The notes beneath the pieces are model-generated. The model did no database searches and was not told where the DNA came from. It saw only the letters and a program-made list of their open reading frames with translations. Source: Gonapodya prolifera JEL478 (taxonomy: Eukaryota; Monoblepharomycota; Monoblepharidomycetes; Monoblepharidales; Gonapodyaceae). Taken from it: a stretch of 26,932 bases of DNA. Where the stretch lies: NCBI GenBank assembly GCA_001574975.1, contig KQ965907.1:3867-30798 (forward strand), in the 5' to 3' direction. The position numbers and the translations under genes were made by a program. Of this stretch, positions 1-26,932 are shown piece by piece. Numbering within the stretch: position 1 is the first letter of the stretch; each line of letters starts with the position of its first letter.

Positions 1-960
1 CCACAAGTCTGTAAGTTGTGCTGTCTGTTCCATAACCAACCAAGATGTGATGTTGTGCCTTTGGTGCAAGTTTGTTGAGTCCTTTCTCTTTGTTCAAGAC
101 ATAAGCATCACATCCAAGGACTCTGAGGTTGGACAAGTCCACAGCCTTCTTCTGGAGGACTTCCAGAGGTACCTTGCCACCAATAGCCTGATAAGGTAAT
201 TGACTTGGTGTAGACAACAGCCCTCACAATTTCAGACCAATAAGACAAGGGAAGGTTGGACATGCTGAGAATGCAGCATGTTGGCTCAATGACAGTCTGA
301 TTGACATGCTCTGCCTTGCTGTTGAGCTGAGGAGTGTATGGTGGGCTTTCCTCATGAACAATTCCATGCATTCTCATGCATGCTTGCAGAGAATTTGATT
401 TCAACAACTCCTGAGCTTCTTGAGCACAAATCCCTTGTACTGCTTCTCCATCATTGATTTGTACTCCTTGATCCTTATGTCTGCTTCAGTTTGGTCCCTC
501 ATGAGGTACTCCACAATGACTGATGTTGCCTTGTCAATCATGAAGAGAATGTAGTGTTCTCCATGTAATCCAGTCACCCTAGCTGGTCCCCAAATTGTCC
601 AAATGAACACATGCAGCAGGCTGAGTCTCCTTCTGTCTGGCTGCATTATTGTAAGGGGGATTTGCTGCTTTGCCAATTTTGCAACCCAAGCAGTGCAAAG
701 ATTCATCAATGTCCTTCCTAGACACTCCTGGAAGCTTTCCAGATCTCACAAGTTGGATGAGATCTCTGTCACCAACATGAGCAAGTTTCAGGTGTGCAAG
801 TGCATGCTGTATCACCAAATTGTCTTCTGCACTCCTTGCATCACCACATTTGATTGCAGGGTAGATGAATGAGATGGGGAGTTCATAGAGTGTCCTTCCA
901 TGTCTTACTCCTTGACAGATGATCCTTCCACTCTTGTCAGTGAGATCCTTCAAATCAGTG
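1..960 (-). mobile_element. Ty1/copia retrotransposon fragment (pre-integrase and integrase), broken
   Basis: Read on the minus strand, pieces in different frames give the usual copia order. The GAG-pre-integrase zinc-binding segment (about 953-700) has a LAHVG histidine region and CLGC. The start of the integrase core (about 700-400) includes a WGP motif and FMIDKATS. The end of the core (407-200) has PYTPQLNSKAEHVNQT, corresponding to the family's PYTPQxNGxAExxN with the third catalytic acidic residue. The fragment runs to base 1 through a segment with LRVLGCDAYV and HHILVGY,, the usual link to reverse transcriptase. Frame changes near 700 and 405, and near 200, show that it is not an intact polyprotein. 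The left end lies outside the window and no LTR was seen. The copia family is clear; the subfamily is not. Confidence 0.85.
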
Positions 961-1355
961 CTTTACACCCTTTTCTGCTTTTGGTCCCAATGGCAAAATT
1001 CTCTTTGTCTATGGTGATCCTGGGTACTCAGGCAAATTCCCCCACCTCCAGTACCCCTTCAAGTTGACTTTTCCAATGCCAGAACAGCATGCTTGCAATG
1101 TGGAGATGTGCCAGCATTGGATTTGTGTGGAGTGGGGAGGGGGGAAGGCGAAAACAGAATTTGCTGCTTTGGACTGGTGGTGAATACATAAGGGTTTGTT
1201 GTCTCTAATTGCTTAATATTTTTGTTGTGGTATTTTACTAACTAATGCTCATACATGTCTGTATGGGAGTGAAACTTTGTCACACTTTCAGTGCCAACCC
1301 CCNCCCCCCCTATTGGAACAATATATATGTGTAAACCAATAAATTTTATACATTT
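961..1355. other. Repeat-derived or intergenic stretch with no gene seen
   Basis: No convincing coding frame was found. The part next to 960 may be the degraded upstream end of the copia coding region, because the minus-strand frame extends there with stops. The interval contains a C-run at 1298-1310 interrupted by an N at 1303, probably an unresolved homopolymer in the assembly, followed by AT-rich sequence. Confidence 0.4.
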
Positions 1356-7199: not shown

Positions 7200-10100
7200 C
7201 TACCCAGCAAGCTCAGTTTGGATAAGACGGTGAACGTGTGTGAGATAATCTGTGACGAGTTGCAAGTTGCGTTCACAAGGCGATTGGTGCGCAACAAACA
7301 ACCATTCCCTTCAACTCACCGACATAATTCATTCCATCGAACGACTTGTCCTCCGCAAGCATATTGCTCAGCTCCACCTCCAACAACGGGTCTGCTTGCT
7401 GGCGTACGAGCTGAGGTGGGACATTGCATATCAAAATGTAGCGGGCCTATGTCCATTCAAGTTTGAGAACCCACCTGAAGCCGCATATACGACGTCCGTT
7501 GAGACTGTAAGTACCCAACAATAGTGCGTACTCGGACGGACAGGGCATTATCAAGCTCCGGCAACGATCGCTGTACATGCGTTCAAAGAGGACAGCGACT
7601 TTAGTTTTTCACTTAAGCCGAATTCCAAGCATGCTACTCACCATCATCACATCAATTTTTTCATGAGCGTCCACACCAAACAGCGCCCTAAGAATCTCTG
7701 GTGGAGCCTGCCGACCAATCCAAAGCATGATCGCCTGTCCGTTCTCGACCAGGTATAGCCCGGCGGGGTCCATGCGCTCATACGAGGCTCGAACGCGCGG
7801 TGGGAGAATGTGACGGGAGAGTTCAAACGGTTCAGATTCCTGGGGATTGTGACTCGCCGTTAACTAGCTGTACCGCTGATCAACATGCCGCGCTTGGACG
7901 CTCACATCCAGAGGTCTTAGGTCATGCAGGGCGAAAATTCTAGGGTATATGAAAGGAACACTCGTGGTCACGGGCATTCCCTTGACAAAGCGGAGATGAT
8001 AAACTCGGACGTCGCTCGGGAGGTCGGGGCCTGTCGTCTCTTCGTCAATGAAGACAAATTAGGGTGACGGGTTCCGGAACCTCACCTCCCCGGAACGCTT
8101 TCATTTTCAGCAAAGAGAGGTTATATAGCGGATAAAGCTTGTATGATTCGGGTAGGATAAGCTATTAGAAGAAAAGATGTAGGTCGTTGGTACGAAGAAA
8201 ACACGGAATGCAACACGTGCTGTTCACCTGGCCCGGTTGTGTAGATGAGGCGCAATTCTTCCTGTATGACGCCAGAATTTTGACACATCGATCGGTGAGG
8301 GCCTCTCGTACTGACCGCAAACTTGACGCTACCGCCTGTGTCGCGGCTGAAGGGAATCGAAGTGAGACGTTCCAAAGTCACACGCCCCGTTAGCACCGCC
8401 CCGGCCCAACGAAGCTCCACTCACACGTCTTCATCAGATAATTCACCGTGGTGTCCATGTCCGCGTACCTGAACACGTTCCCAATCTGCGACGTCACGGG
8501 TACAGCAGCGTTCAGGATCCGGATCCTCCTGTTCCCGCCTGCTGTCGTGTACAGCATGGCCACTTGGAAGAACGCATCGGCCTTTTCATCCAGCTTACTG
8601 TCGTACTGCACGGCCACGGCCAGGGACGTCCGGGGCGACACGCCGGCGAGCTGCACGTCGGTGCTGTTGGACATATTGAAGTTGCCAAAGTGGTCGGCGG
8701 TACGGAGACCTATCATGGAAGCGAATACATCAGCCTCGCCAAGAATATACCAGCACTGTATGAGGAGGAACGCACCTGTAGAGCATCTCACTCGCAGCAC
8801 GGCGTCGTACCCAAAGTTCCCCTCAACCGACTTTCGGACGTCATTGACGAACTTGGGCCCGTCGCGGGCGTAATCGAATCCCTGGTAGTAATACGTGCTA
8901 CCACCGGTCAGGGCCGCAAGGGTTCCTTTTTCCACAACAGCCACAAAATGTCAACCGCCGCTTCACTTGTTGCCCCAAGGAGACCTCACCCACCAATCGT
9001 CGCCAAGTCGACATACCCCCCCGGCACGACCCACATATCAACGCACACGCCGTGGTTTACGAGACTGGTGCCCAGCTTCTTCCACAGGGGCACATCCTGC
9101 GGCTGGAACATGGTCTTCTCTTGGTCCGTTCCGAGGACTTTGGTATCCTCCCGCACGGAGAGCGCGCCGGGGCCTGCGTTGGCGAGCGAGCTCTGGAAGA
9201 TGAGCAAGCGGCCTCCGACGGCGGACTGCGAGTGTGGGAGGGGTTGTGGGGGAGATGTACAGGTAATGGAGGCAGGATAGGGAAAAAGTTCTGTGTGCGA
9301 GGAAAGAAGAAACGGTGCATTGCAATTCTACCCACCAACGCCATATCCACGGCTTGCACAGCCGCTCCAAGCACCGACTCCGTCGTCCGCGTCGTCTCGA
9401 ACATGGTCGGCAGGGTATCCAGCAGGGTCTCGAGGTTCGTCCTGAATGCCGGACAGGTCGTCAAGCATAAGCGAAGAGTTGGGACGGGTCGAGAGTGTCA
9501 AATCAAGGATGAGACACACGAAAAGCGCCGAGACTTCGCAACGCAACGCACGCACCTTCCCTCGTCGACGTCGACCAAGAACCCCTCGTTGATGGGCACG
9601 AACACGTCGTGCACGTCAGACACGACCAGCATTTGGGGGCCTTCGAGCTCCGGCTAGATGGGTTGGCATGGGGGCGAATTGAACGGAGTGGTGAGATTAT
9701 AGAGACGGGGAGAGAGCCATTGCAAACCGCACCGACACCGGGACAAACCCCCCCGCCCCTTCCAACAACCCGAAAATTCCTCCACCGCACGCACCTTCAC
9801 ATTGTAAAACTGCAGCGCCTTATCATACGTCACCACGCCCACTCTACACCCCCTCTGCACACCCGGAAGAGCCGCTCTGACCGCCTCACACGCTCTCGCC
9901 AGATGCCCGGACTGGACGCTCGTGTACGACACGTCGATCGCGAACACAATGTGCAAGGGAGCGGGCGGGCGCAGGGCGTACTCCTTCGTGGCGACGAATT
10001 CGACGGTGCCGTGCGTGAGTTCGGGGCGCTGGGCAAGGTCGAGCCGCCGGCCGTGCATGTCGAGGTTGGAGAAGTAGTCGTCGGAGACTGTGTGCGGGGG

Positions 10101-11885
10101 AGGGGTGGGGGAAGTCATGGTCAGCACAGCGCGATGACGTGCGCCAGGAGCAAGACCGAACGCGCGCCGCAAGACAACGTGACGCACCAGGATTCGGATG
10201 CCCGCAAATGTTACACAACCACCTCCTCCCGCCATCCACAAACACCACAAACGGGTTCACATACGCATGGCACCTATTACACCGTTCCGGCCCCACGTCT
10301 TCGGACCCCGTCAGGGGCACAGGGTCTTCGCCCGGTCCCGGGTCCGCGAGAGGCTGGATGAGGAGGGCGATGGGGATTTGGGAGAGTGTGGAGAGGTTCG
10401 GTGTGGAGGGGATGTTGGCGGTCGTGAGGCGAAGGAGGCGGGGGGAGGAGTTTCCTGGGAAGGTGGGGGTGGGTGGAGTTAGATGTGAGTTTGGGAGAGC
10501 GAGTAGGGTAGAGGAGGTCTGGTGCGCAGTACGCTCGTGGGCCGTAGCCTCATATCTTCTGGTGACTTTGTTCCCCAAATCCTGGTCGAAACCTTGCCAA
10601 GGTCGCATGCCGACATTTGGCCGGTAACCTCGTTCCGGTGAGCTTCGGTTCCAGCGGCACCAAACAGCTCCTCAACGCCGCCGGCAATGTCGCAGAACTT
10701 CTTTTACCCTCCAGCACATGCCCTCCACGTTCCTTTTTGCTCTTCCTCCAGGCATTGCCACATCCCGCTTCTTGCCTCTTCGCCCTCCTTCGAACCTCTC
10801 CAACCTCGCAGACCTTTTGGCGCCATCCCGCACATGCCCTCCTATTCCTTTCGCTCTTCGTCCAGCCAGTACACTCCAGACCTCGCGTCTCGCTCCTCCG
10901 GCCTGCTCGCTTCGCTCGCCGGTCTACGTCTCTGTCACTCACCATCATCGACAATCCTACACTCTGTCGAAACCAACGGCGGCGCCTGTCTCGTACTCGT
11001 CAACCATACACCCTCTGCGTGGGCCTGCTGGTCCGCCTCGTGCACTGCGACGGGTGAGGGGATCTGGTTGGGGTCGATGCGTTGTCGTGCGGGAGGTGCT
11101 CCCGGAGCGCTAAGAGTGCCAGGAGTGCCAGGAGTGCCAGGAGTTCCAGGGGGTGGTTGGCGGGGAGCAAGAGGGTGGACGGAGGGAGGTGTCGGGGGGA
11201 GGGAGTTATGGGATCCCTGGTGGGATGGCGGCGCAGGACCGGGAGCGGAGCCGGGGAAGGGCGGGCGAGGAGGGAATCCTTGTGGGCTCAGCGGCTGGAA
11301 TTGTGGGTTCGCATTCGGCGGTTGTTGAAACTGTTGTGGGTATGGGTATTGCGAGGCCGGCGTCGGTGGGACGCTCTGCGAAGGAGGAAGCGGAGCAGGT
11401 TGGCCCGGCTGAGGTTGAGGAGGAAACCCGGGCTGGTGCGGTTGAGGAGGGTAGTGGTGGGGTTGAGGCGATGGAGCGGGAGATGGATTGAATGGCTGCG
11501 GGGATGGCGAGGGACGGCCACCGCCTGGCATGGGCATGGGAGGCTGTGCACCCTGCTGCTGCGGGTAGACGCGTTTCCCCCTCGGGTGCGCGTTTGGGGA
11601 CAGCGACATGCTCGACATTCCGTTGGCCAGGTGCGACATTGAGGCACCCGGGGGCATGCCAGGACCGGGTGGGGCGGGCATTCCGAGCACTCCAGGTATG
11701 GGCGGCACACCAGGCATTGGTTGCATGTTTGGATTGCTGGTGTGGTGCTGCATGTGGTGCTGCATGTGCGGGTGTTGGGGATTGAACTGTGGCTGCTGCT
11801 GGGATTGGAACTGCGGATGCTGCGGATACTGCTGCTGCGTGTCCTGCTGAGCCAGCAGTGGTCTGTTTCCCGCGTGTGGCAGCAT
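7200..11885 (-). CDS. SFB3: COPII coat cargo adaptor, Sec24C/D type (Sfb3/Lst1-like)
   Basis: Fifteen exons join in phase to 1045 residues: 11885-10943, 10454-10188, 10087-9795, 9653-9556, 9441-9336, 9225-8994, 8925-8776, 8709-8425, 8346-8228, 8161-8086, 8039-7906, 7839-7642, 7570-7475, 7410-7320, 7249-7200. The protein selects cargo for ER-to-Golgi vesicles together with Sec23. Residues 1-290 are a Q/P-rich disordered tail. RIDPNQIPSP and TRQAPPLVSTECRIVDDG mark the Sec24C/D branch rather than classical Sec24. Next come the zinc finger (CNRC...CNIC, about 370-400), the trunk domain (FAIDVSYTSVQSG, about 445-650), the beta barrel (TGGSTYYYQGF), the helical domain (CVKILASYRKNCAS, LILPESYKLYPLYN), the gelsolin-like domain (LYLVENG...LWIGRQAP, about 900-960) and a C-terminal DYLTHVHRLIQ. 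The start is the first ATG in frame; codons upstream in this frame lack an ATG. Paralogue assignment to Sfb3 is by motif memory only. Confidence 0.9.
10455..10942 (-). other. Unusually long first intron of the Sec24-like gene (488 nt)
   Basis: Other introns in this gene are 45-141 nt. The boundaries are well fixed: the donor follows IVDDG and the acceptor precedes NSSPRLLRLT, a join conserved in Sec24C/D proteins. Inside, on the plus strand, a segment near 10725-10760 (ACATGCCCTCC...TTCCTTTTTGCTCTTC) recurs at about 10848-10880 with changes, so part of the length may come from a roughly 120-bp partial duplication. Open frames crossing it are Arg-rich and unlike protein. Confidence 0.6.
11113..11148 (-). 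repeat. 9-bp tandem repeat in the Sec24-like gene
   Basis: Four near-identical 9-bp units (AGTGCCAGG-type on the plus strand) encode a Gly-Thr-Pro repeat in the disordered N-terminal tail. A coding minisatellite of this kind may vary in copy number between strains. Confidence 0.8.
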
Positions 11886-12003: not shown

Positions 12004-14630
12004 ATGCCCAAGGTCCCGTCGCAGCCAAAAGCAGCGCAGAGCCTCGCGCGATTCGCACCCGCAAAGGGACGGCCTGCGGGGGGAAAGGGCGACAAGCAGG
12101 TCTCGGTCTCGCGGAACAAGGCAAAGGCTCTAGGAAAAGATGCGAGGAAACGGGCAAAGATGGAGCAGGAGGACTACTCCAGTGACGACGATGGCAGCGA
12201 CGCCGAGTGGTCGGACGATGTTGGTGGAGACCAGGGTGGTGAAGGTCAGAGGAAGAAGTCGAGAGCAAAGAGCAAGGAGACCTGGGTCGATGCAAAGACC
12301 TCGGAGAAGATCCTCAGTCTGGCAAAGGAGCAGCTCGACGAGATTCACAGGGAAGAGCGTAGTGCTGTATCCGGAAGTGGGGTGAAGGCGAAAACGCCGA
12401 TGAAGAATGGTCGAGTCGTTGCTCAGAACAACGACGACGATGATGGTGGCATGGTTGGGATGAGCGAGGATGGAGACGGAGACGCTGGTCTAGGAGACAC
12501 TGCTGCCAACGTGGGCGCAGACGAAGACGACGACGACGACGATGATGCTGCACTCGACTTCCAGAACAGAGAGGACTACGAAGCTTACCTCGAGACTGTC
12601 GGTCTCGAAGAAAAGGTACGTCTTGATGAGGTGTTGGGGTGCAGGGGTGTGGGGAAAGGACGAGCAAGGAAACAGTGAGGGGCAGCGTCTTGTCGGACGG
12701 TTATATTGGGTGCCTGGATGCTTGGAATGGTGTTTCCGTGCTTGGAAGCTTGAAGGGGGTGCTCAAGAGAATGGACGATGGCAGGGACACCTCCTTGCCA
12801 CGTGCATCGATTGCTGGGGGCACTGATATAGCCCTTGTTCCGTGGATTGCCCCGGAAAACCTATTCCTTCTCCTTTCCGCTTCCCCCCGACTACCCACCA
12901 CACAGAACCTCGACCCCACCGACCTGCGCGCCCTGCACTCCTTCATGCCCTCCTCCTCCTCCCCCTTCGCCACGGGCGCCAACGCCGCACCCGCCCACGC
13001 GCACGCTCAGCGGGGACAGACCCTCGCGGACGTGATCATGGCCAAGCTCAAGCAGCGCGACGCCGATTTGGCAGACAGGGATGTGAAAATGGCGTTGCAG
13101 AGGCCCCCGGGGATGAATCCGAAGATTGTGGAGGTTTATTCGAAGTGGGTGTGAGGTTGGAGGGAGGGTGGGGTGGAGGAGTGGAGGCAAGAGGCGGCCG
13201 GAGTTGTGAGATGCGAGCGCAGCGAACATGAGGCCTAAGCGTCGCTAGACGCTGACCGAGGCTGTTTGGGGGAAGTGAGGTGTGCTTTGTCCCGGGAAGC
13301 AGGAGCATTGCGATAGAGAGTGTGTTGGAAAGTCATCGGGTGGATGGATTGACTGAAGCGGGGGGTAACCGAGGAACTGGTGCAACGGGTATAGAGTTTG
13401 TGTTTGAAATCCGTCCCGGCTCTGGATGATCTCACTGCCAGCATCCTAACCAACTAACCCCATCCCCCCCTCCCACAGAATCGCCCACCTCCTCTCCCGC
13501 CACCGCTCCGGCTCGCTGCCCAAAGCGTTCAAGATCATACCCTCGTTCGCTGATTGGGAGGAGATCCTCTACCTCACCAAGCCCACCGAGTGGTCACCCA
13601 TGGCCGTGTACCAGGCCACGAGGGTGTTTGTCTCGAATTTGAGGGGGGATATGGCTCAGAGGTGCGTTGCGCTGGGTGTGGATGTGGGTCGCGTGTTTTA
13701 CCGGACGCGTCTTGAGGGAATATGGTGCTGTTGTGTCTGGAGGCTTCCTCGAAAGCCTCGGCGGGCGACGCACCCGGACTGGACACATTCGTTCGCTCGT
13801 CGGACTACGTCTCCCCTCTCACACGTCCTAACACGCACCGTGACCCCCGTCCGCTAGATTCTTCAACCTCGTTCTCCTCGACCACGTCCGCGCCGACATC
13901 TCCGAGAACAAGAAGCTCAACTACCACCTGTATATGGCGCTCAAGAAGGCCCTGTTCAAGCCCGCGGCGTTTTTCAAGGGGATCTTGTTGCCGTTGCTTG
14001 AGGTGCGTTTATGCCAACCCAGGGACTTCTCCCTCCTCAACTGACGTCAAAATCCGCACCCCGACTCTTTTACAGGACGGCACGTGCACGCTCAAAGAAG
14101 CCGCCATCATCGGATCTGTGCTGTCTAAAGTGTCCATCCCCGTACTCCACTCCGCCGCCTGTCTGCTCAAAATCGCCGAGATGGACTACACCGGTACGTC
14201 TTCGCTTCCCGTCCTACCATCCTCACTCCATTTCACTTCACACCCTCTCGCATCAGGCCCGACCTCCGTCTTCATCCGCATCCTGCTTGACAAGAAATAC
14301 GCCCTGCCCTACCGCGTGCTCGACGCGCTCGTGTTCCACTTCCTTCGGTTCAAGTCCGACGCAAGAGTCATGCCCGTGCTGTGGCACCAGAGTTTGCTCG
14401 TATTTGTGCAGAGGTGGGTTTCCTCCCCGTGCTCACCTGCATCCGCCCGACTGACGCAACCGCGACCACCCCACAGATATAAAAACGACCTCTCGTCCGA
14501 CCAACGAACGTCTCTAGCCCAGCTCGTGCAGGTCAAGCACCACCCGCAGATCTCGCCCGAGGTGCAGCGCGAGCTAGATTCGGCAGAGGAGAGGCCCGAG
14601 GTTGGCGTTGATACGGAGATGGGGATGTGA
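12004..14630 (+). CDS. ENP1: Bystin / Enp1, 40S ribosomal subunit assembly factor
   Basis: Seven exons in phase (12004-12615, 12906-13144, 13479-13661, 13858-14002, 14076-14193, 14257-14413, 14477-14630) give 535 residues, near the fungal Enp1 length. Residues 1-200 are basic and then strongly acidic, with [12 protein letters not shown] and a run of aspartates near residue 180; this is the usual disordered nucleolar-type tail. From about residue 205 the bystin domain follows: [95 protein letters not shown] and [12 protein letters not shown]. Family members act in pre-40S maturation and export. The start is the ATG giving MPKVP; upstream codons in frame have no ATG. Introns 1 and 2 are longer (290 and 334 nt) than the rest. 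Confidence 0.95.
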
Positions 14631-18540: not shown

Positions 18541-20563
18541 CTACTTTCTCTCCGCCGCCAAACTGCTCCACCACTTATCTCCCAAATCCCTCAACGTGTT
18601 GCTCCCACAATGCACTTCTCCGGCAGCCACATGCAAGTTCCAATAATCATTCACAAAGTGCGCCTTTATCCCACCCTTTCTGTACGCCTCGTCCACCGCC
18701 GCCTGGAGCACGTCGGTACCGTTAATTACAGGCCCGTGCCAATCATACTCTGCCCGACGACAATCCCGTTGATCGCCGTATGCCCTCGAGGGTGATACGC
18801 CGGGGATAAAGGGCCCGAAACGTGGAGGCGTGCTGTCTTCGCCCCAGTCGTTTCCAAAGAACCCAGAGGGAAGCCCGCCGTTGGTCTCGTCGTCGGGCGC
18901 TGCGTCGAACAGCGTGGGGACCTTGACGACATCCGAAGCCGGCACCCCAGTCTCCTCGAGAAGGACTTGCAAGCTCTGGTCGATATACTGTTGGGCCTGA
19001 CCTTGCACTTTGATGAAGTTCTTGTCCGCCAGCAAACCAGAGACCGTCACGTTCAGATTGTCATCCCCTAGTCCGACCACACCGGCCCCTACTCCACCGT
19101 CTGCCGGCACACGAGGAGTGCTCTTTGCCCTCACCACACCATTTTCTGCCTTCTCGGTGCTCCTCAGCACGTCCAGTTCCGAAATTGTATCCGCGATGCC
19201 GATGGTGAACCCAACCGAGTTGTTCTTTGGCAGGAACTGGAGCCATTCGTCGACGTGTCCGACCGAGAGCCATCCCGACTGGGGGATGAAGAGGTATTGA
19301 ATGCCGTCCCACTGAGCCTGCAACAGACCCAGCATGCCATCACTGGGGAGAAATTCGTGGTGCTTGCCAATGATGACGCTCCCGGCGAAGGGATAGTTTC
19401 TATGAGGAGTTTTGCGAATGGGGTAGTTGAAGAGATGACGTTCAATGACTGCTGCTCCCCGTTCCACTTCTGGGCACAAATCACACTCACAATGCTGCCT
19501 CCCGATTTGATCTCTCTCCACCCCAGCGCGCTGGGATCTGCCGTAGCTCCATTCCACGCACCGACGCCATTCCCTCTCACGCCGGGCGTCGTCCACAGTT
19601 GTCTTCCCGACGTCCGAGCCTGCTGGGCCGATCTGAGCAGCACCCTCACGGCAATGACAGTCCCATTGGGACCGGGCATACTCGCGTACCCTGGCTCAAA
19701 GAAATCTTGCGATACCGTGCCTTCTGGGAAATGCGCCAGCGGAGCCTTCACACCGGCCAACGTCTGAGCGGCATCAACCTCCGTGTTGAACGTCTTCTGC
19801 GCTCCCACGCCTGTGTCCGCCATGGTAAAGATCCGTTCCCACGCGCTGTAAGTGGTGGTGCGTGAGCACGGGTGCGAACCGCATGGCCACCTCATCGTCG
19901 GTCTTGCGGTCCCCGTCCACAACCGTCACACGGACGTTCACGAGTCCGTCGCAGTCGCTGGCAGGGTCAAGCATTGATCGCGCCTCCAGGCCTAGTACGA
20001 TTCCGGACCGAAGTGCCGTGGCAGGGCGCAGGCTTGGGGAACGTGGGTCCATGTTGGTGAGGGTGCCATTTGGGGCAAAGTGGAATCGCGGTCCGGGTTG
20101 AATGTTGTACCAGAAAAAGCGGGAGGTCGTGTCGCTGACGTCATTCAAGGGAAGGGTTCAGCTGGTTGGGGCGACGTACTCTGGCGAGTACAGCACATCA
20201 CCGGCGGCGTCACGACATGCCACCAGCTCTGCATCAGTGAGATCAGTCCCGTCGGTTCTCGTGTTGGGGCACCTATTCCCCGTGTTGCCGATGTTGGGAA
20301 GGAAAATGGCGCCACGAGCAAGTGTCCATGTGGTCTTGTCTGCAGCGTCCGCATTGTTAACAACGCCATCGCGGTTTGTGTCGGCGAGAATGGTGGGTTG
20401 GAGTGCCTGCGGTGTGTGTGTGTGAAAAGCAGGCCCAGGGGGGCGAGACAAGAAATCTGACGTGTGGCGGTTGTGTAGAGCACGGGGGCGCAAAATTAGA
20501 TACAGGAGCAATGTGCGCAATGCGTGCCGTTGTGCTCACCGCGATCTGCATATGCATGTACAT
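18541..20563 (-). CDS. Protein-arginine deiminase family protein, frame possibly damaged
   Basis: The family converts peptidyl-arginine to citrulline, calcium-dependent in the studied vertebrate enzymes. Visible landmarks from the N-terminus: ADTNRDGVVN (calcium-site-like middle domain), VSQDFFEPGYASMPGP (first catalytic Asp), WLSVGHVDEWLQFLP (catalytic His and Asp), WHGPVINGTDVL and GEVHCGSNT (nucleophilic Cys) just before the end. Proposed structure: exon 1 20563-20540, a 133-nt intron, exon 2 from 20406, and a 68-nt intron ending CTCATAG (near 19401) that joins the catalytic frames correctly. Three places remain difficult: an in-frame TGA at 20160-20158, a +1 shift near 19845, and two compensating shifts between about 18800 and 18735. 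Short introns of 45 and 46 nt could remove the first two. The start (MYMHMQIA) is weak and no signal peptide was found. The gene is either intact with tiny introns plus assembly errors, or a young pseudogene. Confidence 0.75.
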
Positions 20564-21165: not shown

Positions 21166-23341
21166 TCACCGCCCGGCCTCCATAGCCACCGCAGCTTCTG
21201 CCCCGGCAAAGAATGGGCCCTCGCTGTTGAACCTGTCGAGACGCTGGAGTGTGTGCGGGCCAAAAACAGTGGGGGCTGAAGGGTGAAGGTGGAGAGATTG
21301 GACGATGGAATATTTCCATTCCTGCAGGTGACAGGGATAATACGACAGGAGACTGAGTCCGTACAGTTCCAGGAGTAGATCTCTCATTTATCATACCTTG
21401 CCAATTGTGGAATGGTCCGTAGATCTATCCAGCAAAAATTCAATTATACCTGGCGTATCTCTGACCTTCTGCAAGGTTACGTCGACGACGTCGCAGATAC
21501 ACTTTTTCAGTTTCCGTCAGCTACAGCAAATAACAGCAAGCACTCACAACCAGCCCCCACTCATTCCCAGCAACACTCTTCAACACTGCATACGCGGCAA
21601 TGCGAGTCTCTTCGAACGAAGACCTCGCCAGGGGGAGGAGATCCTTGAGAGCGTTGGGGCGGCCACCGAGGGAGTCAAAGATCTTCGACGAGAGGGCGGA
21701 TATGAAAGGATTCGGAGGTTCACTGGAGGGACAAGTGAGATGGTGGATCCACGAGTAAAGTTCTTCTTCGTGGTTCACTCACACACTCGCAATCAAAGTA
21801 GATATCGTCCTGAGGCACATTACTCGATCCTCCCCGTTAGACGATCTATACAAACCCAAGAAGGTGCTCAGAAGCGTTTTTTGGTTGTCCAGGAGAAGGA
21901 GGCCTTGGACTGTGGAGCCGATGTTTTCGATGGCTACAATAATTCCTTCCTGAGAGGCAGTGCGAGCGCAGACAATGATATTGTAGCTTTCTCAGGGCGT
22001 CAGAGATGACAGAGAACCCACTTTTAGAGTCGAAGATCGCGTGTTTTGGAGAATGGAGTCGAGGGTATCGAAGAAGTGGTGTTCCGAGCTGAATTGTTCA
22101 AAGTTGGCACCCTATGAAATGCCACGGCATTAAATTGCAAACGGGGTTGCATTATCGGAGGTGCTCAACTAAAGTAACTCACCTCAACCGTTGCCACTTT
22201 GGCAAACAACTTTATCATCGCGGCCTTTACAAGATTTGTCTTAATGTCTTCTTCGGTGCTCTGCAGTACCTCCTCGCAAGCAGAGAAAATTTTGGCACGT
22301 TCAAGGAATTCCACTCCGCTGTTAGAGTGAAGAAGCTGCGCAAATATTGATCCGTTTTCGAGTCTTAACTTTCTGGCGATTCTGACAAACGCTCACCTTT
22401 GAGAAAAGCTCTACCGCATTGAGACGTAGCAGGANATCTTCCGAAGTGAGCTCTGCGAGGACGATATCGAACATTCCAGACTCCTCCGCCTTTGCGAGAG
22501 CTTCGTTGGAGAGGGAGGAGAGTCGTGCGATGAGATCGCAAACCCGGAACCGAATAATTTCATCTCTAAAATCGACACATTTGGTAAAAGAAGAGAAGTG
22601 CTCTTCCAAGATTCGAAAAGGGGCCCTACCGGGTGGCAAGTTCGCTCAGTTGAGACACGATAGAATCGTCAAATAAGCTACCCAGCCCATTTTCCGAAGA
22701 CGCAAACTATGAATCAAGTAGATTTTGAGTACCAGTCGAAGACAAGGCTTCTGAGACGTCACAACCTTGACCAATGCAGCTGTGGCTCTGTGAACCACAT
22801 CGAGCGATTCAGAGGATAGACATTCAATCGTTCGTTCAAGAACTGGGGATATCTTCAATTCGAGACTTTATTGGAGAGCCAGAACAGGGGTTCGAACACG
22901 ATGACGCAACCGAACCTCATCGGGCGACCCAGAAGCCAAACACCGCTCCGCTTCGTTCAAAGCGAGTATCCTGACCTCGGGGAGAGGGTAGGAAAGCCCG
23001 GCAACGATATAATTTCGGAAATCGAGAATGCTCTTGGTGTCCAAAGAGGACAGACATTTTGAGAGTACGGATACTAGTGCTTTCACCGCGTCGGAGGGAA
23101 GTGGAAGGCGAAAGAGTGAGAAGAGCGATTGAATTGAGATAGATTCAAGAACTGTGCTTGGAGGGATGGATCTTCCTGTTGAACGACGTGATATAAAAGG
23201 TTTCGATCGTTGGATGCCTCTCTGAAGCGCACCAACGATAAGCGCAAGGTCCACGAGAGCTGCCGAGACCACATCCACCGATACGCAGTCAGCGTCTTCC
23301 AGAGTGCTCGATATCGATTCAAGTGTTTGCGGGAGAGTCAT
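21166..23341 (-). CDS. PSMD5: 26S proteasome assembly chaperone PSMD5 (S5b) homologue
   Basis: Ten exons join in phase to 525 residues: 23341-22900, 22842-22766, 22706-22630, 22565-22397, 22335-22183, 22111-22022, 21949-21783, 21722-21548, 21468-21397, 21321-21166. The human protein has 504 residues. It is an all-helical ARM/HEAT-like protein. PSMD5 binds the Rpt1-containing base module during proteasome assembly; Hsm3 is the yeast counterpart. Segments matching the human protein from memory include FRNYIVAGLSYPLPEVRILA, ENGLGSLFDDSIVSQLSELA, IIRFRVCDLIARLSSLS, NPFISALSSKIFDSLGG, DTPGIIEFLLDRSTDH, and the C-terminal WKYSIVQSL with FNSEGPFFAG before the stop. An N at 22435 leaves one residue undefined in TSEDxLLRLNAVELF. 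The first donor (GTGTTC) and third exon's upstream donor (GTTGTG or GTGACG) are the least certain boundaries. It is divergent from LC8. Confidence 0.88.
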
Positions 23342-23570: not shown

Positions 23571-24295
<725 letters not shown>

Positions 24296-24518: not shown

Positions 24519-25448
24519 ATGTTCCGATATTCGCTTGCTGCCGCTCGCCCACATCTATCAAAAACTTCTCTCAGCTCATCAATCCCTGTGCGAGGACTGG
24601 CCACTGTCGCTCCCGCAGCCTCTTCGTCGCATGAAGTGAAAGTCGGGGTGATTCTGAAACGCGATCCCATTGTCCTGCCCCGCCTTTCTCCCTTCGAGGA
24701 AGCCTATTTTCGCTACAAGGATACCGTGGCTGATGCCACCGCCGAGGCGCTACCCACGGCGTTCTATTTCAAGCAAGGATCGATCGCCGAACAGGAGTTT
24801 CGAGAACGGGGGGCGAGAGGCAAGGGTCCATCCACTGCAGAAGGAAACTTGGAATCAGGGGAAGTGACTCGGACAGCGGAAGAAGGGAACCTGAAGAGTT
24901 GGAACCGTGCTCTAGACAGGACTCTGTACTTGGTGGTAAAGAAGCCCAGGCTGGACCACGCGTGGCAGTTTGTACAAGGAGGCGTTGAAGGCGATGAATT
25001 TCTCCACCAGGTGAGTCCAGGTCCAGAGCTCTGTATTGCTACATCTGGTGCTTCGGATCCACTAACCATCAACCGTTCCTCTGAACAGGGTGCCGAGAGA
25101 GAGATGAAGGAAGAATGCGGAGAAGATCTCGAGTTTTGGCTTGTTGGGAAACGACCGGTCGCACACCACATCTGCAACTACTCAACCCCTCAAGAGCGAA
25201 ACGGTGTCGCTTACGATCGTGCAAAGGTGAGTTGTCCAGCCAAAGCGAACCATTTGCGCCGAGATGAACTATTCTTTGTTGTTTTCTGTAAAACACAGGT
25301 GTTTTTCATGTACGGTCATGCGTTTGGCGGCCAGGTGCAACCCGATGGGAAAGAGATCGTGGACTTCGCATGGGTAACGAAGGAAGGACTCGCAGAGTAT
25401 TTAGACCCAAATTATTACAATGCCATAAAAGACGTGCTTGTAGAATAG
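24519..25448 (+). CDS. MRPL46: Mitochondrial large-subunit ribosomal protein mL46
   Basis: Three exons in phase (24519-25010, 25089-25226, 25299-25448) give 259 residues. The N-terminus (MFRYSLAAARPHLSKTS) is basic, Ser-rich and without acids, as in a mitochondrial presequence. The body has the mL46 start region (VGVILKRDPIVLPRLSPFEE), the inactive Nudix-like fold (HAWQFVQGGVEG, GAEREMKEECGEDLEFWLVG) and a C-terminal VFFMYGHAFGG with FAWVTKEGLAEYLDP. The segment REMKEECGE resembles a Nudix box helix, but the family is structural in the mitoribosome. Yeast MRPL17 is the counterpart. The stop lies 24 bp from the stop of the convergent FGD-like gene, so the 3' UTRs must overlap. Confidence 0.9.
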   Translation: MFRYSLAAARPHLSKTSLSSSIPVRGLATVAPAASSSHEVKVGVILKRDPIVLPRLSPFEEAYFRYKDTVADATAEALPTAFYFKQGSIAEQEFRERGARGKGPSTAEGNLESGEVTRTAEEGNLKSWNRALDRTLYLVVKKPRLDHAWQFVQGGVEGDEFLHQVSPGPELCIATSGASDPLTINRSSEQGAEREMKEECGEDLEFWLVGKRPVAHHICNYSTPQERNGVAYDRAKVSCPAKANHLRRDELFFVVFCKTQVFFMYGHAFGGQVQPDGKEIVDFAWVTKEGLAEYLDPNYYNAIKDVLVE

Positions 25449-25472: not shown

Positions 25473-26932
25473 CTAGTCCCGCGTAAACTCTCCCGAAAAT
25501 TGCGTGAGTACCCCGTGTTCGGACGGCCTACGGACTTGAGTCCAATTGGTATTAGACACCGTGGACTCTTCTAGAGGGATCACGATTTTAATTTTTATCG
25601 TCCGGGAAGTACTCGAGCTTTCGTTTCCGTCGACGAGGATTAAGGCAACGCACCTGGTCCTGTGATACCGAATGCTCTCCACGCCCGAAGGATTCGTCGG
25701 AACCCCGTGCTCATCAAAAGACAGTAACTGGGTGAAGTTCGGGCGTCCATGCATTCGATAACATTGTTGGCACCACCGGACAGAGCGAGTTGTAGAGATG
25801 GAGGGATGTATGAAGTCGCTGAAAAAATGAAGGTGGAATCTTGCTTCATTGGGGCAAAAAGCAGCTTTAAAATCCACTTACGTTATGCAGTCTGAACAAC
25901 AGATCTTCTCGCAACGCTCGCACGTCCATCGTTTCGTCCAGGGCATAAATCGCGTCTGCTCGCAGCTCTGACACACGCCCTGTCCAACTCTTGAGGCAGC
26001 CCATTTTATGGCTTCCCCAGGATTGAGTGCTGATGCTACATCGGCAGCTTTGATGGCTCTCTCGGCTCTCAAGGCTTCGTTGACATGTAGAGAAAGCTTC
26101 TCGAGCCAAAGGGCCCTTTCCTCCGGCGTAGCAGAATAAACCGTGAAAGTTTTCTGCTCACTAAATATGTTGAACGCATTTGTGTGTACTTGGACGGAAC
26201 CCCAGGTCAGCATGAACTATGCTCCGAAAAGATATCGAATAGCTGTCCAGGCTCACTCTCATCATCAGGCAATGACGCAACACCAAGGCGAGAGAGAGGA
26301 ATGATAGTCTGATCTCAGCCGAGGGGTAAATAAGGTTCAAGAACACCATGCTGCCAATAAGCAGTCTCGTACATGTTGAGTGAGTCTCTTTAGCTTTCCG
26401 ACAGGTGTCCCATATAGAAGAATATCACTAAAAAGGAAAAATCTCCGGAGGCGAGGTCTAGGAGAGAAGATGCCCATCGAATGTTGAAGCTTGAAATAAT
26501 CGTTTTGAAGAGACGGGTCCTACCAACCCATTACGGCTCAATTTCGTGAGATTCCCGTCCATCACATCTACAAACAGTTATTTAGAGGCAGTTAGACGGA
26601 ATCATTCGGGTGGTTGATCAATGTAAGAATGAATGGATTTCAGAAGGAACCTACATCGTCGGTTTGACTTCGCGAGCTCTCCTTTCGTAAGTCCAAAAAG
26701 CTGCTCGATCTCAGCAATTTTGTCTGCATTCCGCTGCGCGTCCATAGAAGTCCCGCGCTGGTCGAAGCGCTAGTGTCAAATCACCCGAGACCGGATCAAA
26801 TTGGGTGTGTTGTGCATTCCACCGAATCGAATGGGTAAAAAAACTATTACATGAAGCTCCAAATGCTCTTTATGCACGAATCTCGCGTTGTCTCTCGAGA
26901 CGGTTCCGCTCTTCCAACTCGAAAGTTAGTTC
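25473..26932 (-). CDS. FGD-like RhoGEF, C-terminal half (PH and FYVE-type zinc finger), 5' end outside window
   Basis: Well-supported exons are 25818-25473, 26188-25882 and 26308-26257; further exons lie upstream near 26450-26395, 26570-26525 and 26770-26650, and the gene runs off the right edge. Reading from its N-terminal side: DAQRNADKIAEIEQLFGL resembles the last helix of a Dbl-homology domain. The PH domain follows, with VMDGNLTKLSRNG, RFFLFSDILLYGT, IIPLSRLGVASLPDDE and KTFTVYSATPEERALWLEKL. Then comes a FYVE-type finger (VCQSCEQ, WTCERCEKICCSDCIT, VRWCQQCY) whose basic motif departs from the usual RRHHCR. Such proteins activate Rho-family GTPases at phosphoinositide membranes. The DH domain itself would be outside the window, so RhoGEF activity is inferred from architecture; a PH-FYVE adaptor is the alternative. 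Confidence 0.75.

Follow-up and report, generated by a model that had tools for sequence, protein, structure and literature searches.

Two builds of protein-arginine deiminase (PAD) are set apart in the portion of Cummings et al. (PMC8826395) on which we draw here: a three-domain type found in cyanobacteria and animals, and a two-domain type of fungi and actinobacteria, which is marked by a triple-His motif linking the PAD_M and PAD_C domains and for which a transfer from actinobacteria to fungi has been proposed. The existence of fungal PADs, their two-domain build and the proposal of a bacterial origin are already published, and the remark in the original prediction that transfer between kingdoms has been suggested for this family matches that proposal. 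Table 1 of the same paper counts 177 PAD-bearing fungal species in UniProtKB in 2019, 176 of which are Ascomycota; with a single species left outside this phylum, PADs beyond the Ascomycota were rare at that time. The PADs of Emericella dentata and Aspergillus nidulans are catalytically active (El-Sayed et al. 2019, as cited in the same portion of PMC8826395). Our own literature search returned, among the matches listed, no title on a basidiomycete PAD, although one may still have been published.

The locus described here lies on the minus strand of a stretch of DNA of 26,932 nucleotides, which we analyzed as a whole and refer to as the window, and is flanked by the bystin gene and a PSMD5-like gene. 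We read it as a recently disabled PAD pseudogene of the two-domain type, with fungal-style introns and a one-base change of reading frame, and give this reading a probability of about 0.58. The parts of the gene, starting from its N-terminal end, are the following.

20180..20394, minus strand: N-terminal (PAD_M-like) exon piece, which starts TILADTNRDGVVNN and contains RGAIFLPNIGNTGNRC; the profile alignment begins here
20135..20179, minus strand: probable 45-nt intron GTACGT...CAG holding an in-frame TGA (20158-20160), with a consensus donor and a length in frame
19840..20134, minus strand: exon piece reaching as far as the PAD_M/PAD_C link APVLTHHHLQRV, which carries the triple-His mark (PF03068, profile alignment, tree)
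19836..19842, minus strand: one-base change of reading frame, at about 19839 (reference proteins, profile, replacement tests)
19774..19776, minus strand: stop codon in the upstream frame, 5' of every catalytic residue (ORF 19774..20157)
19713..19723, minus strand: lost D-x-W site, reading GTV (D and W in 29/29 relatives)
19562..19838, minus strand: opening portion of the catalytic domain, where the catalytic Asp lies (19704-19706; PF03068 positions 24-132)
19449..19561, minus strand: probable intron with donor GTGCGT at 19561 and acceptor end at 19470, 19452 or 19449 (92, 110 or 113 nt; three consensus solutions)
18541..19448, minus strand: rest of the catalytic domain, carrying His, Asp, Cys and the stop at 18541-18543 (PF03068 positions 141-394)

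Family, type and genomic setting of the locus

The PF03068 profile matches the locus in three frames and in collinear order, with two of the three matches above the cut-off of 25. The strongest, to ORF 18541-19695(-), reaches 171.1 bits (E = 4.8e-50, model positions 141-394) and is far beyond chance; ORF 19164-19925(-) follows with 36.7 bits (E = 3.1e-9, positions 24-132), and ORF 19774-20157(-) stays under the cut-off with 16.3 bits (positions 3-25). Further upstream, the PAD_M match is weak (ORF 20158-20535, E = 0.1, 12.6 bits against a cut-off of 24.8), and a scan of four ORFs gave no PAD_N domain, although where the gene begins at its 5' side is uncertain. PDB chains of PAD types 1, 2, 3, 4 and 6 also matched, amounting to 27 distinct sequences. 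For the analyses below, a profile of 27 bacterial PADs was aligned to the DNA by a script with set prices for frame changes, stops and introns. This alignment starts with TILADTNRDG at about 20394 and ends near 18547, and it gives no PAD signal in 20395-20563. Judged by these matches, the identity of minus-strand 18541-20394 as a protein-arginine deiminase (PF03068) is secure, and the family named in the original prediction stands. Third-position GC in the PAD pieces is 0.63-0.72, which is coding-like (bystin, 0.76; mitochondrial ribosomal protein L46, or mL46, 0.55).

The link between the two domains, APVLTHHHLQRV, includes the triple-His string THHHLQR, and HHH is likewise present in 53 of the 82 bacterial matches that were fetched. 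The nearest among the relatives compared are PADs of Streptomycetaceae, with a Streptomyces sp. KN37 plasmid matching at 9e-28. These relatives come from searches of different reach: an initial scan of genomes that used the window ORF on its own found none, 80 of 109 confirmed loci were kept from a further genome scan, a plasmid search with human PAD4 returned Streptomyces and Embleya only, and viral contigs and phages gave no relatives. In a tree whose 30 rows are the window, two human PADs and 27 PADs from bacteria, with fungi and cyanobacteria unrepresented, the window groups with 15 of the 16 Streptomycetaceae rows at 100/97, the remaining one, an Embleya row (L002), falling with Lentzea, and a 100/100 branch parts it from the human PADs. 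Its own end branch is very long (3.49), and its exact place in the tree is unsure. Three bacterial PADs, from a gammaproteobacterium (L079, 4001-5665), Paenibacillus amylolyticus (L081, 4001-5533) and Vibrio ouci (L082, 4001-5611), fall on the human side at 100/100.

From its sequence, the window PAD appears to be of the two-domain, Streptomyces/fungal type. It shares family, domain order, the THHHLQR link and the catalytic residues with Streptomycetaceae PADs such as WP_320592483.1 (Streptomyces sp. KN37) and that of Wenjunlia tyrosinilytica (L059); to the latter it is 37% identical over 456 columns, or 39% (220/559) in a frame-aware alignment. However, the 27 bacterial PADs are open, intron-free and keep D-x-W, whereas the gene in the window is interrupted by probable introns and a frame change and has lost invariant sites. 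The ascomycete PADs of E. dentata and A. nidulans can be likened to it by description, since the triple-His mark set out in the portion of PMC8826395 cited above places them in the same two-domain type. Vertebrate PAD1-PAD4, of which structures have been solved, have the catalytic domain and its residues in common with the window; they are built from three domains (PMC8826395, same portion) and lack the triple-His link that the window has. The likeness to vertebrate PADs pointed out in the original prediction is real, but more distant than that to the Streptomyces PADs.

The window is eukaryotic, and the surroundings of the locus include three intron-bearing genes, namely, bystin at 12004-14630(+), with six introns (63-334 nt) and open over 535 codons, dynein light chain at 23662-24295(+) and mL46 at 24519-25448(+). 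Pieces of the PSMD5-like proteasome gene lie at 22.3-23.4 kb(-), and an ambiguous base n at 22435, beside or inside this gene, is a sign of a draft assembly. Bystin is fitted best by a chain that we take to be human (388 bits), ahead of those that are presumably from Chaetomium (284) and yeast (277 or less), and mL46 is fitted best by a presumed Neurospora chain (116 bits), ahead of presumed yeast (85) and mammalian (49 or less) ones. Both fits suit a fungus outside the Ascomycota; the basidiomycete origin suggested at first is plausible, but the fits name no phylum. Elsewhere in the window, pieces of a Sec24-like COPII gene at 9657-10671(-) lie in a GC-rich (about 60%) part (Sec23/Sec24 zinc finger, 6.6e-15; trunk, 2.4e-11), a GAG-pre-integrase domain at 582-962(-) (PF13976, E = 9e-5, under the cut-off) may be what is left of a copia-type retroelement in the AT-richer left end, and 25881-26216(-) gives weak matches to a FYVE zinc finger (E = 0.018) and an alsin-PH-like domain (0.0037), both under their cut-offs.

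Catalytic residues and the D-x-W site

All three motifs quoted in the original prediction are present on the minus strand, but they are split over two reading frames instead of sharing one. VSQDFFEPGY, with the catalytic Asp codon at 19704-19706, is in the frame of ORF 19164-19925, and both VGHVDEW (His, 19255-19257; Asp, 19249-19251) and GEVHCGSN (Cys, 18607-18609) are in the frame of ORF 18541-19695. The four catalytic codons (Asp, His, Asp and Cys) are thus all kept, in two frames that are joined only by an inferred intron. The preceding domain, with the link described above, is in the frame of ORF 19774-20157.

The claim of a complete motif set does not hold, since the D-x-W part of the D-x-W-x-Q-D motif at the catalytic Asp is absent. 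The window reads G-T-V-S-Q-D here, whereas the D, W, Q and D of the motif are present in all 29 aligned relatives, two human PADs among them. From this conservation, we infer that D-x-W-x-Q-D is a defining feature of PADs; in PAD4, the tryptophan of D-x-W (W347) is a substrate contact. Among the 29 relatives, 61 columns show a uniformity of at least 90%; the window keeps 47 of them, and the D and W of D-x-W are among the 14 misses, three of which fall in the unaligned part and a few (two or three) at the uncertain second intron. Among the fetched loci, DxWxQD is found in frame in 81 of 82, the exception (L066) having an internal stop in the matched frame. Such a stop is also present in two further Streptomyces PAD matches, L031 and L065 (3/82 loci in all), and these three may be broken or mis-sequenced copies, or the match may run across two frames.

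Probable introns and the frame change near 19839

The neighboring genes served as controls. Introns fitted in bystin, mL46 and dynein light chain have a GTRNGT donor in 12/12 cases and a YAG acceptor in 11/12, a rule to be taken with some care, as part of the fitting was done by eye and part by an aligner favoring such donors. All three of these housekeeping genes read without a break. When the same aligner was run on bystin (against human and yeast) and on mL46 (against Neurospora), it gave introns but no frame change and no stop, and the scores were equal with or without frame changes allowed. It also gave one spurious 57-nt intron in mL46, at a place where the gene reads straight through, so that intron calls alone are no proof.

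Two interruptions of the PAD gene behave like introns. The first is the in-frame TGA at 20158-20160, which lies in a 45-nt GTACGT..CAG stretch (20179-20135) whose removal keeps the frame. The PAD signal of this stretch is about that of random sequence, given that 80 of 300 replacements were as good with the stop free and 292 of 300 with the stop priced at 8 bits, and a consensus intron spans a random stop in real coding sequence by chance at 3/495, 1/219 and 5/258 positions. We consider 20135-20179 to be probably a real intron, shorter than all 12 fitted neighbor introns (60-334 nt), and the TGA was dropped as a candidate lesion because the stretch behaves like an intron. The second is a change of frame at some point in the interval 19561-19405, where three consensus introns starting from GTGCGT at 19561 fit. 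The stretches that they would remove (92, 110 and 113 nt) again have a PAD signal close to random (102, 86 and 100 of 200 replacements as good), and chance consensus rescue of a random 1-nt deletion occurred at 4/495 and 0/219 positions, which together suggest that this frame change is probably an intron within 19449-19561, its borders being open. The best of the three consensus introns is outscored by 1.3 bits by a GT..AG of 38 nt whose donor is poorer, and the consensus cuts leave the S-x-G-N segment of the relatives uncoded and would also remove two of the 47 kept columns. A further candidate lesion, the out-of-frame AINGIVVG near 18776-18753, was dropped as well, as its signal is about random (78/300 and 90/300 replacements as good).

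The remaining interruption lies near 19839. All eight reference proteins tried place a frame change at 19839-19860, and the 27-sequence profile places one near 19839 at prices of 8, 12 and 5 bits, although at 5 bits the aligner also gives several further frame changes that we judged untrustworthy; in the Pfam match, the two frames abut at this same break. GTRNGT donors are limited to three in the region (20179, 19561 and 19490), none of which joins the two frames, and between 19777 and 19925 there is none at all, with the result that no consensus intron bridges the break. The DNA at the break, 19797-19842, carries PAD coding signal beyond chance, with 0/300 random replacements equally good at each of the prices 5, 8 and 12 bits. 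Even with introns allowed, the locus therefore does not read in a single translatable frame. Translation in the upstream frame stops at 19774-19776, some 70 bases ahead of the catalytic Asp codon and far ahead of His, Asp and Cys. The working enzyme that the original prediction implied is not supported, given this frame change and a stop ahead of all four catalytic residues, and it appears most likely that this PAD copy makes no active enzyme.

Disabled gene, assembly error or unusual intron

If the locus is a pseudogene, as we favor, its history may be pictured as follows. The ancestral PAD would have been an enzyme that turned peptidyl-arginine into citrulline through the usual Cys-His-Asp-Asp chemistry, and a two-domain PAD would have become an intron-bearing fungal gene before losing its function recently. 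With its frame shifted by one base between the PAD_M-like domain and the catalytic one, the gene is translated to a stop that comes before the catalytic residues; the invariant D-x-W beside the catalytic Asp is lost too, and there are signs of relaxed constraint. The long end branch in the tree and the losses at conserved columns speak for this account. It assumes a frame change carried by the organism itself and no fault of the assembly, as well as a loss of function, both of which we infer. Several observations argue against it. Apart from one base, the gene is readable with consensus introns and keeps its four catalytic codons, damage so slight that the break is accounted for equally well by one error in the assembly or by a mutation of very recent date. 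In addition, the ambiguous base at 22435 means that the window sequence is imperfect, and the codon-position GC of the PAD pieces is coding-like.

The main rival, to which we would give a little over a quarter of the weight, is that the locus is a working fungal two-domain PAD with a variant substrate site that lacks the D-x-W tryptophan and that an assembly error of one base lies behind the break near 19839. In its favor, there is only one break without a consensus intron, all four catalytic codons are preserved, and the two likely real introns suggest a settled eukaryotic gene; yet the coding sequences of bystin, mL46 and dynein light chain are free of errors of this kind, and the loss of D-x-W is no one-base error. 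This rival can be extended to a fungus outside the Ascomycota that holds a transferred, intron-gaining and still-used Streptomyces-type PAD, with an active site that does without the D-x-W tryptophan and with the frame change being an assembly error, but we regard this larger claim as doubtful.

Alternatively, the gene might work because 46 nt with a weak donor, GTGGGA..CAG (19842-19797), are spliced out at the break as an intron, which the frame arithmetic allows; this we hold to be improbable. The donor GTGGGA agrees with GTRNG, the gene probably has an intron of 45 nt at another place, and a fully open model exists, with introns of 45, 46, 38 and 45 nt and a score of 310.8 bits. However, the 46-nt intron would remove 19797-19842, the PAD-coding stretch that none of 300 random replacements equaled. 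Moreover, when any GT..AG of 38-60 nt is allowed in the intact neighbor genes, 399 of 400 random insertions can be rescued (as can 388/400 deletions and 248/400 stops), so that the fit means little, and since loose GT..AG introns rescue nearly any random insertion, the open short-intron model was discounted and set aside as evidence.

Still less probable is a shortened gene, in which a protein consisting of the catalytic domain only would be made from an ATG near 19824 (MADTGVGAQ..). The catalytic part is indeed open from this ATG, given the second intron, but the product would be missing the PAD_M-like domain, and the D-x-W site is lost here too. In known PADs, the PAD_M-like domain binds regulatory calcium. 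For human PADI2, such binding is described in the cited portion of PMC8826395. Finally, that the locus is no deiminase and carries the motifs by chance is refuted to near certainty by the PF03068 match (E = 4.8e-50) and the 27 distinct PDB PAD sequences that match it.

Neither outcome, a disabled or an intact gene, alters the known picture of the PAD family. If the gene is intact, it would extend PADs beyond the Ascomycota and provide a natural variant of an otherwise invariant site. If it is truly disabled, it would show that a transferred deiminase can acquire introns in a fungus and afterwards fall into decay there, a point of relevance to the patchiness of PADs among fungi.
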